From NCBI GenBank assembly GCA_030665765.1, contig DAOUZE010000004.1, positions 1 to 34,622 on the forward strand: a DNA stretch of 34,622 nucleotides, in the 5' to 3' direction. Source of the DNA: Filomicrobium sp. GTDB taxonomy: Bacteria > Pseudomonadota > Alphaproteobacteria > Rhizobiales > Hyphomicrobiaceae. Of this stretch, positions 22,237-30,139 are shown piece after piece. The notes beneath the pieces are model-generated. The model was not told the origin of the DNA. It saw nothing but the letters and a program-made list of their open reading frames with translations, and searched no databases. Made by a program: the position numbers and the translations under genes. Each line of letters begins with the position of its first letter. Position 1 is the stretch's first letter.

Positions 22237-23016
22237 TCAAACGCGGCGTTCAACCATAAGCTTTTTCAGCTCGGCAATCGCCTTTGCGGGATTCAAACCC
22301 TTGGGACAGGCGCGGGTGCAATTGAGGATCGTGTGGCAGCGGTAAAGCCGGAATGGGTCCTCAAGATCGTCAAGGCGTTGCCCCGTCGCTTCGTCGCGGC
22401 TGTCATTGATCCAACGATAGGCCTGCAACAAGATCGCCGGACCGAGATAGCGGTCAGAGTTCCACCAATAGCTTGGACAGGATGTGGAGCAGCAGGCACA
22501 CAGGATGCACTCATAGAGTCCGTTAAGCTGCTCGCGGTCTTCTCGAGACTGCTTCCACTCGATGGGCGGGGTTGGCGTATCTGTTTTAAGCCAGGGCTCA
22601 ATTGAACGATGCTGAGCGTAGAAATGACTCATGTCCGGGACCAAGTCTTTTATGACCGTCATGTGTGGTAGCGGGTAGACCTTAACGGTACCGGAAACGT
22701 CATCGATCGCCTTCAGGCAAGCGAGTGTATTGGTTCCATCGATGTTCATGGAACAAGAACCGCAGATGCCCTCTCGGCAGGAGCGGCGGAAGGTTAAGGT
22801 CTGATCGATTTCATTCTTGATCTTGATGAGCGCGTCGAGAACCATCGGACCGCACTCGTCGGTGTTTATCCAATAGTTGTCGATATGCGGATTCTCACCT
22901 GTGTCGGGAGACCAACGGTAGATCGAGAACTGCTTCCAGCGCCCTTTGCTGCCGCGTTGATTCCAAGTCTTGCCTTGGGTGATTTGTGAATTCTTGGGAA
23001 GGGTCAGCTGGACCAT
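22237..23016 (-). CDS. sdhB: Succinate dehydrogenase iron-sulfur subunit
   Basis: SdhB relays electrons from the flavoprotein to ubiquinone via three clusters. The 259-residue protein has the 2Fe-2S ligands in '[10 protein letters not shown]' and the following 'LAC', the 4Fe-4S ligands in '[12 protein letters not shown]', and the 3Fe-4S/4Fe-4S set in '[21 protein letters not shown]'. All Cys are present. The start at 23016 ('[10 protein letters not shown]') fits alphaproteobacterial SdhB; the ORF-track start adds nine residues. It is the last gene of the sdh block, separated from sdhA by an unrelated gene. Confidence 0.96.
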
Positions 23017-23163
23017 GGGGACGAGCTCTCTTTTGCAGCGCAAATACTATACGATTGACATGCGGGGTGATCGACGCACTGTCAACGTTACGATGGGCGG
23101 GGCTCTCGCGGATCGACGCAATTTTCCGCGATATGTCAGCTGCTTTAAGCGCCGAGATACCGC

Positions 23164-23784
23164 TTATTCGACGCGGTGTTTTTTCAATTCGGCAACGAGA
23201 CGACCAAGCCTGCTGGCAACTTGAAAACCCTTTTCAACGCTGGCTTTGAGCGTTGCGCGCTGCTGGATGAGTTCGTTCAAGGCTTCCTGGCACTCGCCAA
23301 AGCCGTAAAAGACTTCCTCTGGAGCATCAATTTCCCCGTCCTCGACCGCCGACATGACGTCGAAGGCGTTCTGCGAAGCTAAAACCAGCATGGACGCAAC
23401 GTCGTTAATGATCTGCTGGTATTGGCGTGCCGTGTCGGCGCTAACGCGGGTTCCGTGCACACCGAACTTCAAAGGAGTGCCGGTGGCAGCGCCCTCACCG
23501 CCAAACAGCCTAGGATGGCGATGGAAGCGGCGGAAGATCTCAACCAGCCCCATGCAGCAGGTCTCAAGATCGCGCAGCGCGGAATCAGCCTTACGCCGCG
23601 ACTTTGGGCGCTCAGAGGATTTTTCCTCCGCCGACCAGTTGATCGACGCGATGGAGGCGATGGCCCCCAAGGCGGCAAGGGCGGGCAAAACAGCGGCAAA
23701 TGGGTCGGGCGCGTTGCGGGTTGCTTCAGCAGCTGCGCTGTTGGAGGCGGTCGGTTTCGCCTTTTTGGATACGCTTTTTTTCAC
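23164..23784 (-). CDS. Unknown protein encoded between sdhA and sdhB
   Basis: I do not recognise this 206-residue protein. It starts with a basic Lys/Ala/Ser-rich stretch ('MKKSVSKKAKPTASN'), then a hydrophobic helix near residues 30-49 ('AAVLPALAALGAIASIASINW') that could be membrane-associated, a basic 'KSSERPKSRRK' linker and a helical C-terminal domain ('CCMGLVEIFRRFHRH', 'QYQQIINDVASMLVLASQNA', 'QRATLKASVEKGFQVASRLGRLV'). It runs in the same direction as sdhA (gap 216) and sdhB (gap 147), and could be co-transcribed with them. Compositional coherence and length argue for a real gene. Function, and any link to succinate dehydrogenase, is unknown. Confidence 0.65.
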   Translation of the reverse strand: MKKSVSKKAKPTASNSAAAEATRNAPDPFAAVLPALAALGAIASIASINWSAEEKSSERPKSRRKADSALRDLETCCMGLVEIFRRFHRHPRLFGGEGAATGTPLKFGVHGTRVSADTARQYQQIINDVASMLVLASQNAFDVMSAVEDGEIDAPEEVFYGFGECQEALNELIQQRATLKASVEKGFQVASRLGRLVAELKKHRVE

Positions 23785-24000
23785 GATCGATCCTGGAGGC
23801 CGTGCAGGGTGCAGGCAACTTTAGCCCCGCATGAAGCACACGAGCAGGACGAGGCGCTTGAATGCCCGGAGTCTGTGTCAGCTGCAAGACCATGTCGAGT
23901 GCCGGAAGCTATCTGCCGTGCTTGTCAACAGTTCGCGGGGCCGAAGGCCCATCAGGTGGCAATTAACAGCGCCGCGAGAGAAACGGATCAGCTGAACCGG

Positions 24001-25806
24001 TCAATAGACCCGGGCTTTGGGCTCGATGTAATTCATCTCGTTTGTCAGCGTGTAGGCGTGTACCGGGCGGTAGTCGATGCTGATCTTCCTCTTGGCGTAG
24101 TCGGCCCAAGCCAGCGTGTGCTTCATCCACTCAGCATCGTCGCGGTTGGGATAATCCTCGCGGGCGTGCGCTCCACGGCTTTCGGTGCGATTTGCGCCGC
24201 CGGTGACGGTGACGGCCGCCTGCGCGACGAGATTGTCGTACTCGAGCGTTTCGATGAGATCAGAGTTCCACACCAGGGACCGGTCGGAGACACGGATATC
24301 CTCCGAACCATGCCAGATTTCATCGATCAGTTTGACGCCTTCTTCAAGCACGGGACCATCGCGGAAGACGGCGCAGTTCGATTGCATCACCCTTTGCATC
24401 TTGAGACGCAATTCAGAGGTCGGCGTGCCGCCAGAGGCGAAGCGGAAGCGGTCGAGGCGAGCGAGCGCCGGCTCATAGGTCTCGGGCGGCAGGTCGGGTT
24501 GGCTGCCAGACTCGACCACATCGGCACAGCGGAGTCCGGCGGCGCGGCCGAAGACGACAAGATCGATCAGTGAATTGGAGCCTAGTCGATTGGCGCCGTG
24601 GACGGAAACGCAGGCTGCTTCGCCGATGGCCATAAGACCCGGCACGACATGGTCGGGATTGCCGTTCTTCAGGGTGAGAACTTCGCCGTGGTAGTTCGTT
24701 GGTATGCCGCCCATGTTGTAGTGGACCGTCGGAATCACGGGGATCTGATCGCGGCGCAAATCGACGCCGGCGAAAACTTTCGCGCTCTCCGTAATGCCCG
24801 GAAGACGCTCCGCCAAGATATCGGGATCGAGGTGGTCGAGATGCAGGAAGATGTGATCGCCGTGGGCCCCGACACCGCGACCGTCGCGGATTTCCATGGT
24901 CATCGAGCGGGAAACGACGTCGCGGGATGCGAGGTCCTTGGCCGAGGGAGCATAGCGCTCCATGAAGCGCTCACCTTCGGAGTTGGTCAGATATCCTCCT
25001 TCACCGCGAGCGCCTTCGGTGATCAGAACGCCGGCACCATAGATACCGGTCGGATGGAACTGCACGAACTCCATGTCCTGTAGGGGCAGGCCGGCGCGCA
25101 GCACCATGGCGTTACCGTCGCCTGTACAGGTGTGTGCCGAGGTGCAGGAAAAATAGGCACGGCCATAACCGCCGGTAGCGAGAATTGTCTTCCTGGCGCG
25201 GAAGCGGTGGATGCCCCCGTCCTCGAGCGACATGGCGACAACGCCGCGACAGGCACCATCGGCATCCATCATCAAATCGAGCGCGAAGTATTCTACGAAG
25301 AATTCCGCCGAGTGCCGGAGTGACTGGCCGTAAAGCGTGTGAAGCATGGCGTGGCCGGTGCGGTCGGCTGCCGCGCAGGTCCGCTGGGCGGGAGGACCTT
25401 CGCCGAACTCTGTTGTCATCCCACCGAACGGGCGCTGATAGATGCGGCCGTCCTCCGTGCGCGAGAACGGAACGCCGTAATGCTCCATTTCGTAAACCGC
25501 GGCGGGAGCATGGCGGCAAAGATATTCAATTGAGTCCTGATCGCCGAGCCAGTCGGAACCCTTGACGGTGTCGTACATGTGCCAGCGCCAATTGTCGGGA
25601 CCCATGTTTCCAAGTGAGGCGGCGACACCGCCCTGCGCAGCTACAGTATGGGAGCGGGTTGGAAAGACCTTTGTCACGCAGGCTGTCTTAAGCCCGGCTT
25701 CCGCGCAACCCAGCGTAGCGCGCAAGCCCGCACCCCCAGCGCCCACCACCACCACGTCATAGGTATGATCGATGATCGTGTAGGCTTTGCCATTCGTTGC
25801 AGCCAT
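24001..25806 (-). CDS. sdhA: Succinate dehydrogenase flavoprotein subunit
   Basis: SdhA oxidises succinate to fumarate using covalently bound FAD. The 601-residue protein shows '[20 protein letters not shown]' (FAD), the flavinylated His in '[11 protein letters not shown]', '[27 protein letters not shown]', the active-site '[15 protein letters not shown]' type segment with '[19 protein letters not shown]', and the C-terminal '[16 protein letters not shown]' and '[10 protein letters not shown]' blocks. It starts 43 bases after sdhD. Length and motifs are full. Confidence 0.97.
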
Positions 25807-25849: not shown

Positions 25850-26227
25850 TCAGGCGAAGCTAAGCTTCAGAATTGCCCATACGCTTGCCGACGCGACGAG
25901 GATCGCAAAGAAATTGTTGAGCAGCAGTAGGACGATTTTCGTGCTTTCACGGGTGATGTAGTCCTCGATGATGACCTGCATCCCGAGCCGCATATGGATC
26001 GTCGCCGATACGATCAGCATCGCCAATAGCAATGCCACGATCGGATTGGCCAGGGTTGACTTGACCGTTGCGTAGTCGGCGCCCGCCAGACTGGCGATGA
26101 GCCAGACGAGGAAAAGGCCGAGTACTAGATTGGCTACCGCGGTGACGCGCTGCATCCAGAAATGGTCGGCGCCTTCCTTGGCGGAGCCGAGATGCCGAAC
26201 GTTTTTGAGCGGTGTGCGCATGTTCAT
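25850..26227 (-). CDS. sdhD: Succinate dehydrogenase membrane anchor subunit
   Basis: SdhD is a membrane anchor that helps bind heme b and ubiquinone. The 125-residue protein has three transmembrane helices: '[19 protein letters not shown]', '[20 protein letters not shown]' with a His that is the candidate heme ligand, and '[23 protein letters not shown]'. The segment '[14 protein letters not shown]' is a family signature, as is the N-terminal '[22 protein letters not shown]'. It begins 37 bases after the sdhC stop. Confidence 0.92.
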
Positions 26228-26264: not shown

Positions 26265-26672
26265 TTAGCCAGTCAACAGAACGGCGCCCCAGATGAGCAG
26301 CGTCGCGGCGACGGAAATGATTCCTGACATTTTTGAAAGCGTCTTGACGCTTTGGATGTCTAAACCTCGACCCGTATCCCAGATGAAGTGGCGGATACCT
26401 CCCATCATGTGATGTAGGAGGGACCAGGTGAAACCAAACAGAACTATCTTGCCAAGTAGGCTGCCGAATATGCCGTTGACGAAGGCGAAGTATTCGGGGC
26501 CGATGGATGCCGCCACCAGCCACCAAGCCAACAGCAGCGAGCCGAGGTAAAGCGCCGCGCCGGTCATCCTATGCAGGATCGACATGACCATGTTGATCAA
26601 GGGACGGTAGATCTGGAGATGCGGCGAAAGTGGTCGGTTATCGGTACCTTGCGCCGTTCTCGCGTCGGACAT
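26265..26672 (-). CDS. sdhC: Succinate dehydrogenase cytochrome b556 subunit
   Basis: SdhC is the larger membrane anchor. The 135-residue protein has 'RPLSPHLQIYRPLINMVMSILHRMTG', the SdhC signature, and three hydrophobic helices, with the heme-ligand region 'LLHHMMGGIRHFIWDTGRGLD'. The ATG at 26672 is preceded by GGAGG, so the ORF-track start at 26753 is rejected. It is the first gene of the sdh operon. Its promoter should lie in the 145 bases that separate it from the renalase-like pseudogene. Confidence 0.94.
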   Translation of the reverse strand: MSDARTAQGTDNRPLSPHLQIYRPLINMVMSILHRMTGAALYLGSLLLAWWLVAASIGPEYFAFVNGIFGSLLGKIVLFGFTWSLLHHMMGGIRHFIWDTGRGLDIQSVKTLSKMSGIISVAATLLIWGAVLLTG

Positions 26673-26817
26673 TCGCACCTCCAAATTCGTTGCCAGCTTG
26701 ACCGTTGTATTGGTTTTGCTGTTTAGCGCGCTTGTTGCGTTGCGGCAATGCACCTAATGGCAAAGCGAAGACCGCTGCCTGGTGTGGCCAATGCCAGTTC
26801 AGGGGTGATGGTTTCAC

Positions 26818-27814
26818 TACCAGACAGGCCCTGGCAACAGGCAGCCTGATCTATCGAGGGAACAATTGATTGCGTGACCGACGCCCTCACCGCTTTCAAA
26901 AGCATGCTCCGCGATCCGGCCCACGCATCAATCACCGGTAAAACCAACCCGGTCCTCGCTGGAATAGACATAGCTCACGCCCAGCGCCTCTTCGACAAGA
27001 CCGTCGCACCAAAGATGAGCAGTCAGTCGTGTCGGCCGCATCGACGGCACGCTCAGGATATGGCTAACCTCGCCCCAAATTTCGTCGGCCACAAACTCAA
27101 GATCGGCATCCTCGACCTCGCGGCTCCAGGATGGGGAGGCATGTACGACAATCGTTTCGCCGCGAGCGGTTGGCCCGGGTTTCGCATTGTTGCGCGCAAA
27201 CCAATGGATCAACTCCGATAGGTCAAAATAAATATCCTTTCTAGGAGGACCCACTCGTCGAGGCGCACCATTAGCGACCAGCAAGGGGACATGCGAACAC
27301 AGGCTAATTGGCCGGCTATTTCGTCGAATGGGCACAGAAAGAGCTTTGCCTGGGGCGCCAGGACACAGATGGCGACCGCAGAAAAAGGCTCAATAGATGT
27401 CCGGTCGTTGAACCAAATTCGCCAACCTTGTTGTGACTTCTACAATGTATGAACGACCCGGCTCGTGTAGATCCTTACGCCCTGCGCCAACGGACGCACG
27501 GGCGAAATCACTGGAATTCCAACAGACTTGTTGGCGATCGCCGCTGTCCTGTTGCCCTGCGCCGCCGACTGGCCGGGTTTCCAACGGGCGGCGTAACCAG
27601 ACTGAACAAGTTCAGTGATGAAGCCCCTGAAAATGCTGGAGTGACCGGTGATGTATTGAGCGCCATGATCATATGGCAGGACGCCGACACGCATCGTCGA
27701 TATGCGGCCACCGACGCTGCTGTTGGCTTCGAAGATATCAACGTAGTGGCCGGCGCGTCGCAATTCTCGAACGCCCGACAACCCAGCACCTATGATCGCT
27801 GTCAGGCTGGTCAC
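26818..27814 (-). pseudogene. Renalase-like FAD-dependent oxidoreductase, decayed
   Basis: The N-terminal piece (27440..27814) begins 'MTSLTAIIGAGLSG', continues 'GHYVDIFEANSSVGGRISTM' and 'YDHGAQYITGHSSIFRGF', typical of NAD(P)/FAD-dependent amine oxidase-like (renalase-type) proteins. The helix after GxGxxG is about four residues short ('GLSGVRELRRAG'). The C-terminal piece (26928..27335, another frame) reads 'LIHWFARNNAKPGP', 'IVVHASPSWSREVED' and 'GFTGD', then TGA (plus-strand 26928-26930) where the family has Trp (GDWC), and goes on in frame as 'CVGRIAEHAFESGEG' to a TAG near 26818. A middle segment is missing. Frameshift, nonsense and deletion together show a pseudogene. Confidence 0.8.
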
Positions 27815-27932: not shown

Positions 27933-28991
27933 TCAGCGCGGCAGGATAAGCCACAGGTCGAGATCGAGGATCACGTTTTCCTGATACTTGCCGTCGGGCT
28001 CTTTCAGCGGATGGGCCGCGCAAGCGAGATCCTTGGTGGCAATGAGGCGGACGCGTAATGCGCCAACGTCATTGCGGCCAGGGAGCTCGGCGCGCTCCAG
28101 CACCTCCGACCAGGCATAGACGGTGTCGCCGGCAAACAGAGGGGCGACGTGCCGACCTCCATTAATGGCCGCGATATGGAAGGCATTGGCCAGACCGTTA
28201 AAGGACAGTGCCCGAGCAACCGAAATGACAACACCACCGTAAATCAGGCGGCGACCGAAGCGACCCTGGGCTTCGGTGTGCTGATTGAAATGCACCTTGG
28301 CGGTATTCTGGAACAAACGCGTGGCGATCTGGTGCTCGGCCTCTTCAACGGTCATACCATCAACGTGGTCGATTTTTTCACCGGTCTCATAGTCGCCCCA
28401 ACGGTGGGGGCTGCCAGCTAGGTCGTAGTCGTACTTGGAGACGTCGATGCTGGGTACGGCGGTGGCCAGCTCTTCTGGCGCAACCCGGTCGGAAAGCTCG
28501 GGTACAAGCGGCTCTGGAACGGGCGCATCGGGATCGCGTTTTCGCACCATCACCCAGCGGGTGTACTCGAGGACTTTTTCGCCGCTCTCGCAGTATCCCG
28601 TCGAGCGGACGTAAACCGTGCCGGTCTTGCCGTTGGAGTTTTGCTTGACCCCAATGACTTCGGACACCGTCGAAAGGGTGGTGCCGGGAAAGACCGGCTG
28701 CAGGAATCGGCAAGAGGCGTACCCGAGATTGGCGACGGCGTTGAGCGACACATCGGGAACTGTTTTGCCGAATACGGTGTGGAATACCAACATGTCGTCG
28801 AGCGGGCTGTCCGGATATCCAATAGCGCGGGCAAAGGCGGCAGAGGACTGGACGGCGAAGCGTGGACCGAAGAGGCCCATGTAGAGGGCGGCGTCGCCTC
28901 GGGTAACCGTACGCGGCGTGGCGTGGCGGATGATCTGACCGGGTAAAAAATCCTCAAAAAAGTTGCCCGGATTGGTTTTTGTGACAGCCAT
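27933..28991 (-). CDS. mcd: Mesaconyl-CoA hydratase-like double hotdog (MaoC) protein
   Basis: The 352-residue protein has two MaoC/hotdog halves ('GQIIRHATPRTVTRGDAALYMGLFG' and 'ATRLFQNTAKVHFNQHTEAQGRFGRRLIYGG'). It resembles mesaconyl-C4/beta-methylmalyl-CoA hydratase (Mcd/Mch) of the ethylmalonyl-CoA pathway in length and in tandem arrangement. That enzyme interconverts mesaconyl-CoA and beta-methylmalyl-CoA. The neighbouring CitE-like lyase gene, 46 bases upstream in transcription order, supports the role since the lyase would act on the product. Other genes of the pathway (ecm, ccr) are not in the window, so a different acyl-CoA substrate is possible. Confidence 0.75.
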   Translation of the reverse strand: MAVTKTNPGNFFEDFLPGQIIRHATPRTVTRGDAALYMGLFGPRFAVQSSAAFARAIGYPDSPLDDMLVFHTVFGKTVPDVSLNAVANLGYASCRFLQPVFPGTTLSTVSEVIGVKQNSNGKTGTVYVRSTGYCESGEKVLEYTRWVMVRKRDPDAPVPEPLVPELSDRVAPEELATAVPSIDVSKYDYDLAGSPHRWGDYETGEKIDHVDGMTVEEAEHQIATRLFQNTAKVHFNQHTEAQGRFGRRLIYGGVVISVARALSFNGLANAFHIAAINGGRHVAPLFAGDTVYAWSEVLERAELPGRNDVGALRVRLIATKDLACAAHPLKEPDGKYQENVILDLDLWLILPR

Positions 28992-29037
28992 GACCGTTCT
29001 CTTCTTCCCCCTTGTTGGTCGCGCTCTTGTTGCCTTC

Positions 29038-29919
29038 TCAGGTGCTCATATCCACGATCGCCTCAGCAATCGCCACCGTTCTTTCAGACATCTGCAAGTG
29101 GAGCCGTTCGACCATCTTGCCATCAACCGTAATAACGCCCCTTGCCGCATTCTCCGGCTGCTTAAATGCCGCAATGATTTTACGCGACCACGTCACTTCG
29201 TCTTCGGAGGGCGAGAAAATCTCGTTTGTGATTTCAACCTGGGCGGGGTGGATCAGCGTTTTGCCGTCCATGCCGAGTGTGCGACCGTGCTCGCACTCGC
29301 GGCGTAGGCCTTCCATGTCGCGGAACTCGTTGTAGACGCCATCCAAAACGTCAAGGCCGTAAGCGCGGGCGGCGACGATCGTCATGGAAAGCCAGGGTAC
29401 GACCGCAAACCGGTCTTCGTAGGCCCGGGCGTGGGACTCCTTGATGAGATCGTTGGTGCCCATGACGAGGCAGGTCAGGCGATGCTCACGCTCGATGCCG
29501 GCCATGGCGATCTCGCGGACGTTGAGGATCGACATTGGTGTTTCCATCATGGCCCAGAGCATCGTCTTATCGGGCGCATCTGCGGCGGTAACTACCTTGG
29601 CGGCCGAGATGATGTCGCCGGGCCGACCGACCTTGGGAACGAGAATCGCGTCTGGCCCTGCTTGGGATGCGGCTTTTAGATCATCGGCGCCCCATGGGGT
29701 TTCCAACGCATTGACGCGAATGATGAGTTCGCGTTTGCCGTATCCCCCCGCCTTTACTGCCGCACAGACCTTTTCGCGCGCTTCCGTCTTGGCATCGGGC
29801 GCGACCGCGTCTTCCAGATCGAGGATCAGGGCATCAGCGGGGATAGTTTTAGCCTTTTCGAGTGCACGGTCGTTCGAACCGGGCATGTAGAGAACGCTGC
29901 GGCGTGGGCGGACATCCAT
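29038..29919 (-). CDS. HpcH/HpaI (CitE-like) CoA-ester lyase or malyl-CoA thioesterase
   Basis: This 293-residue TIM-barrel protein belongs to the CitE-like family ('RRSVLYMPGSNDRALEKAK', 'LILDLEDAVAPDAK', 'PKVGRPGDI', 'METPMSILNVREIA', 'LGMDGKTLIHPAQVE'). Related enzymes cleave malyl-CoA or beta-methylmalyl-CoA (Mcl1) or hydrolyse (3S)-malyl-CoA (Mcl2). The short length and 'VLYMPGSN' start look more like the Mcl2/CitE branch, but I cannot tell lyase from thioesterase by eye. The ATG at 29919 has AAGGAG 6 bases upstream; the ORF-track start adds 37 residues. It precedes the hydratase gene and is likely in one operon with it. Confidence 0.8.
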   Translation of the reverse strand: MDVRPRRSVLYMPGSNDRALEKAKTIPADALILDLEDAVAPDAKTEAREKVCAAVKAGGYGKRELIIRVNALETPWGADDLKAASQAGPDAILVPKVGRPGDIISAAKVVTAADAPDKTMLWAMMETPMSILNVREIAMAGIEREHRLTCLVMGTNDLIKESHARAYEDRFAVVPWLSMTIVAARAYGLDVLDGVYNEFRDMEGLRRECEHGRTLGMDGKTLIHPAQVEITNEIFSPSEDEVTWSRKIIAAFKQPENAARGVITVDGKMVERLHLQMSERTVAIAEAIVDMST

Positions 29920-30139
29920 GCGGGGCTCCTTCTTGAGTGAGGGTTCGCTCTCGTGGAGATCTGGGCGCGTGGTCCCAGGTCGGGTGGCGTTTGTGCGGCG
30001 CGACATTAATCGAGGGGGCAGGAAACGCAAACCAACAAAGGACGCATGAACTGTGCTGTGGGTGATTTGTGCGAGCAGTCTTGCAATTCCAGTAAACTGG
30101 CGGCCTCAATTGCCGACCTGGGAAAGGACATTTCAGCTA

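Follow-up and report, generated by a model that had tools for sequence, protein, structure and literature searches.

A lineage-restricted, probably membrane-anchored protein family usually encoded beside sdhA and sdhB in Hyphomicrobiaceae

SdhE/SDHAF2 (PF03937), the flavinylation factor of succinate dehydrogenase (SDH), is a small protein that acts on SDH, and according to a passage in PMC5042078 SdhE is conserved in alpha-, beta- and gammaproteobacteria. The gene described here, which we call X, lies between sdhA and sdhB in a 34,622-nucleotide stretch of Filomicrobium sp. DNA (the window), and if its product were an SDH accessory factor it would likewise be a small protein acting on that enzyme. 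However, X is about twice as long as SdhE/SDHAF2 and has a hydrophobic helix, and neither X nor its 27 relatives matched PF03937. All 15 genomes that we tested encode SdhE, whether or not they carry X; in that of the window it is located on contig C355. The known assembly need of SDH is met by SdhE, and because SdhE is encoded elsewhere in all 15 genomes, X is not its replacement. Two other described groups bear some likeness to X. DUF7319 (PF24003) has a weak local similarity to residues 124-180 (E 0.0045), seen likewise in 14 of 28 members of the X family, but X, scoring 16.9 bits where the cut-off is 27, does not belong to it. The sensor domains of Tar, Tsr and PcaY contain a four-helix bundle like that predicted for X, but the resemblance is general only (Foldseek E 0.5 or worse, TM-scores of approximately 0.3-0.5), and X has no signalling domain.

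A conserved gene of Hyphomicrobiaceae and close kin

A first interpretation made from the letters of the window (the sequence-only reading) had proposed a gene for a 206-residue protein lying co-directionally between sdhA and sdhB. This was borne out, with both flanking genes identified by profile matches; the ORF is on the minus strand and has a GTG start preceded by AGGA (Table 1). X is separated by 216 bp from sdhA and by 147 bp from sdhB, and sdhD and sdhC lie upstream of sdhA on the same strand. Homologues are present in 28 of the 59 relatives (window genome included; E down to 1e-114) and base differences from the nearest congener number 19/8/99 on codon positions 1/2/3, so X is no spurious ORF but a genuine gene. 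It evolves under purifying selection, with a dN/dS of 0.02 against the closest congener and up to 0.16 against other congeners where the ratio was computable. Two opposite-strand ORFs over X (23354-23824 and 23422-24573) were regarded as shadows because the substitutions fit the X frame.

Table 1. Positions of X, its coding subregions and the surrounding sdh features in the window
Feature	Position	Strand	Basis or remark
sdhB, iron-sulfur subunit	22237..23016	-	NF004616 over cut-off; ATG start, listed TTG at 23043 is upstream
CCGCATG, block that follows TTGACA and is likewise conserved in the Filomicrobium clade	23059..23065	-	Gap alignment
TTGACA, promoter -35-like, conserved	23080..23085	-	69 nt before sdhB ATG; comparison of relatives
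X CDS, family-specific 206-aa protein	23164..23784	-	GTG start; ORF list, homologues, alignment, codon-position substitutions
Four-helix bundle codons, residues 66-201	23182..23589	-	AlphaFold2, full protein and isolated domain
Conserved loop PLKFGVHG codons, residues 104-111	23452..23475	-	P104, K106, F107, G108 invariant in alignment A1
Hydrophobic helix codons, residues 29-51 (probable single membrane span)	23632..23700	-	AlphaFold2 helix; best 19-mer Kyte-Doolittle mean 2.1
AGGA, likely ribosome-binding site of X	23791..23794	-	Six bases 5' of GTG start
sdhA, succinate dehydrogenase flavoprotein	24001..25806	-	TIGR01816 over cut-off
sdhD	25850..26227	-	PF01127
sdhC	26265..26753	-	PF01127; ORF as listed, true start may be internal

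Homologues are present in most Hyphomicrobiaceae. Most of the 74 distinct named loci bear the labels Hyphomicrobium, Filomicrobium or Hyphomicrobiaceae; one comes from a Methyloligella MAG, and a few have other labels (Devosia, Rhodoferax, unclassified MAGs). The cultured species H. facile and H. zavarzinii carry X. When 398 genomes of the order were searched with a profile, the yield was 24 clear members, of which the window's own family accounts for 21 and three other families for one each, with partial weak matches at E 0.002-0.007 treated as chance. Among 385 sampled alphaproteobacteria, only the window's own genome matched and the 384 others lacked X. The family is therefore limited to Hyphomicrobiaceae and three neighbouring families, with one copy per genome as a rule. 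We obtained no convincing family match in Pfam, NCBIfam, PHROG or PADLOC (no match at all in PADLOC; E 0.02 or worse in PHROG, to different families) and no significant match to the sequences of solved structures in the PDB. Foldseek searches, two against the PDB and one against viral models, gave nothing at E 0.001, the top matches being generic helix bundles, and our literature searches returned no paper on the gene. X thus defines an unnamed family of about 200 residues, typical of Hyphomicrobiaceae and close kin, which appears undescribed in the libraries and literature searched and can be recognized by the marks APDPFAAVLPALAALGAIASIA, PLKFGVHG and EDGEI.APEELFFGFGE.QERLN.

Some loci have several unrelated genes beside X, which could be taken as a sign of mobile cargo, or of a defence or toxin gene that landed in the sdh locus by chance. 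We consider this very improbable, as scans of viral contigs and of plasmids gave no relative, matches to PADLOC were lacking and those to PHROG unconvincing, each genome carries a single copy, purifying selection is strong, and identities among X proteins track those among the corresponding SdhB proteins (r 0.63).

Predicted fold and topology

The sequence-only reading had called for a structure prediction and expected one hydrophobic helix and a helical C-terminal domain. AlphaFold2 supports both (mean pLDDT 81.7, pTM 0.78), placing a helix at residues 29-51 and, after it, a four-helix bundle (66-89, 116-148, 156-174 and 179-201); modelled in isolation, the bundle domain gave the same helices with a pLDDT of 84.9. 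A hydrophobic 19-mer was found in 126 of 126 X sequences, and the Kyte-Doolittle value of the helix is comparable to those of the sdhC and sdhD spans. Summed crudely over the residues, the insertion energy is marginal for X (+1.8) compared with sdhC (-0.4) and sdhD (-0.8). X is probably inserted in the membrane by this helix, judging from its sequence, or the helix may pack on the bundle instead of spanning the membrane. On average across the family, the 12 residues before the helix carry a net charge of -1.8 and the stretch after it +3.7, and by the positive-inside rule this would place the N-terminus outside and the bundle in the cytoplasm. The basic N-terminus that had been pointed out in the window's protein is atypical among the family, in which the basic stretch follows the helix. 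Invariant or near-invariant residues include R23, P28, L33, L39, I45, R64 and R86, followed by the loop P104-x-K106-F107-G108, D149, Q166 and R176. Uncharacterised membrane proteins confined to one lineage are, as a kind, familiar.

Linkage to sdhA and sdhB

The sequence-only reading had asked whether homologues of X always lie between sdhA and sdhB; this arrangement was found at 44 of the 74 named loci. A further 18 have one of the two genes only (13 sdhA, and five sdhB, one of these having sdhA close by on the opposite strand), ten have neither and two are unclear; some loci stop at contig edges, so that single cases may be incomplete. The distance between X and sdhB is 79-228 bp among named loci, whereas that between sdhA and X ranges from 37 to 5931 bp. 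On a quick X tree with long branches, which makes the counts rough, the link to sdhB changed at least six times and that to sdhA at least ten times. In one genome (G029), sdhB lies on the same contig 112 kb from sdhA-X and has retained its own downstream neighbours, and in another (G020) X, sdhA and sdhB each lie at a separate place. The unlinked copies have no common neighbour, as far as could be seen with codon-usage gene calls. SDH also occurs without X in the same family: G010, G033 and G034 have sdhA and no X, and in G009 (78% complete) an empty gap of about 120 bp separates sdhA from sdhB. One further genome (G023) lacking X, sdhA, sdhB and mdh was rejected as a case of co-loss, the whole region being apparently missing from the assembly. 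The link between X and sdh is strong yet not obligate.

These arrangements bear on the proposal that X is a family-specific SDH accessory factor, anchored in the membrane, that holds SdhB or SdhA-SdhB near SdhC-SdhD during assembly, or tunes activity. The main point in its favour is the short distance at which X precedes sdhB in three families; this holds for G051 and for G072, both from other families, although in the latter sdhA is 30 kb off, and X was also kept next to sdhB in a 1.8-Mb genome. The usual co-directional position between sdhA and sdhB and the probable membrane helix fit as well. However, the link has repeatedly been lost while X was kept, SdhE is present in every genome tested, sdhB is set off from X by a promoter-like element (see below), and X evolves faster than SdhB, with a mean identity of 66% against 84%. 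Neither constant sdhA/sdhB linkage nor presence wherever the lineage has SDH was found, the latter in view of G010, G033, G034, other families and the class at large. Because the X-sdhB pair persists over three families we do not dismiss such a role, which we nonetheless regard as unlikely.

To see how X compares with the boundary elsewhere, sdhA-sdhB spacing was surveyed in the 97 genomes of the order in which both genes were placed, 91 of them without X. The two genes had been described as normally adjacent, but in just 44 of these 91 is the gap 150 bp or less; it is within 400 bp in six and 0.4-6 kb in 29. We read 27 of the 0.4-6 kb intervals (L224-L250), of which nine contain FkbM-type methyltransferases (two called by Pfam, the rest via BLAST to those two) and eight contain an unnamed 145-aa family that carries GYSGTPLPxKLGL. 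Single cases include a sulfotransferase, SUFU, CreD, a pyruvyl transferase and others. The methyltransferases and the 145-aa family, found in other Hyphomicrobiales, occupy the same slot in the same direction as X, but they are unrelated to it in sequence and no TTGACA (see below) precedes sdhB there. Genes at this position elsewhere in the order might have been diverged copies of X, but sequence comparison rejected this (best E 0.44). Thus the sdhA/sdhB boundary is open to insertions in the whole order, and since unrelated genes have repeatedly come to occupy it, position alone is weak evidence for the function of X. This recurrence cautions more generally against inferring function from an operon-like position. 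Several Hyphomicrobium genomes (L054, L056 and L060) have 4-6 kb of extra genes between sdhA and X, which by eye encode short-chain dehydrogenase-like, NUDIX-like and small secreted proteins and one FkbM-like protein.

A promoter-like element before sdhB and the place of X

In an alignment of the X-sdhB gap from eight genomes, the sequence has diverged except at TTGACA and CCGCATG. TTGACA is the most over-represented hexamer before sdhB, occurring in 47 of 50 X-sdhB gaps where 1.1 were expected by shuffling, although related sequences inflate such counts; it mostly lies 60-90 nt before sdhB, and in some few gaps as far as 159 nt away. It is also present before sdhB in eight of 11 Hyphomicrobiaceae genomes without X upstream (0.2 expected), but in none of 27 genomes from other families whose sdhA and sdhB are separated by genes. 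Among sdhA-X gaps, four of 35 contain it (0.9 expected). No comparable conserved element was found before X. As TTGACA accompanies sdhB even without X upstream and nothing like it precedes X, it belongs to sdhB rather than to X, and the divergence of the surrounding sequence argues against mere shared descent. A consensus promoter scan of the window gave no sigma-70 site, the element being seen only by comparing relatives, and the -10 region that follows does not fit the consensus. The comparison suggests that TTGACA is a promoter -35 element making sdhB its own transcription unit in Hyphomicrobiaceae, and hence that a core respiratory operon has come apart into two units within a single family. 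For this reason the earlier description of X as embedded in the sdh operon is doubtful. The apparent separation of sdhB is a side result that is more testable than the X family itself.

One could go further and suppose that X emerged in Hyphomicrobiaceae while sdhB was turning into a separate transcription unit, as a membrane partner of SDH that coordinates separately made SdhB with the membrane anchor, but we think this quite doubtful. The sequence-only reading had left the choice between an assembly or regulatory factor and an unrelated passenger, and of these the passenger is favoured and the SDH factor weakened, because the link has repeatedly been broken with X kept, SDH occurs without X, SdhE is found everywhere tested and unrelated genes occupy the slot. 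We therefore believe it likely, though by no means certain, that X is a stand-alone, lineage-specific and probably membrane-anchored protein whose placement near sdh is inherited gene order and not the mark of a dedicated SDH factor. This draws on the observed conservation and family limits of X, its repeated unlinking, the element before sdhB and the other occupants of the slot; no positive function for X was found. From the predicted structure, X would be anchored in the inner membrane by its single N-terminal helix and would hold its four-helix bundle on the cytoplasmic side, with conserved end loops that may bind a partner there. At the insertion-tolerant boundary, an sdhB with its own promoter would let the sdhCDA and sdhB ends separate, after which X could remain with either end or leave, and X may be expressed by read-through of sdhCDA transcription or from its own weak promoter. 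Against a pure passenger stands the fact that 49 of the 74 named loci retain X at a distance of 79-228 bp upstream of sdhB, together with the G051 and G072 arrangements. A specific form of the passenger explanation would assign X to the cell-envelope or cell-cycle machinery of the budding, prosthecate Hyphomicrobiaceae, which its distribution closely fits and with which a probable membrane protein agrees. With unlinked loci that share no neighbour of such a role, and X in three other families, we hold this to be a slim prospect.

The surroundings of the locus provided several further observations. The search for Rfam RNAs in the window found none. On the plus strand, a Lys/Ala/Pro-rich histone H1-like protein (PF07382; 21439-21921) adjoins sdhB, and small Lys/Ala-rich proteins are encoded near sdhB in G029 and G020 too. 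On the minus strand, an FAD/amine-oxidase-like oxidoreductase (26853-27814) is broken by an in-frame stop and a frame change, representing a pseudogene or an assembly error; a protein of this kind of about 325 aa is intact between mch and sdhC in most related loci. Also on the minus strand, MaoC/mesaconyl-CoA hydratase-like and CitE/malyl-CoA lyase-like genes (27933-30030) lie upstream of sdhC, in a synteny that is kept across much of the family.
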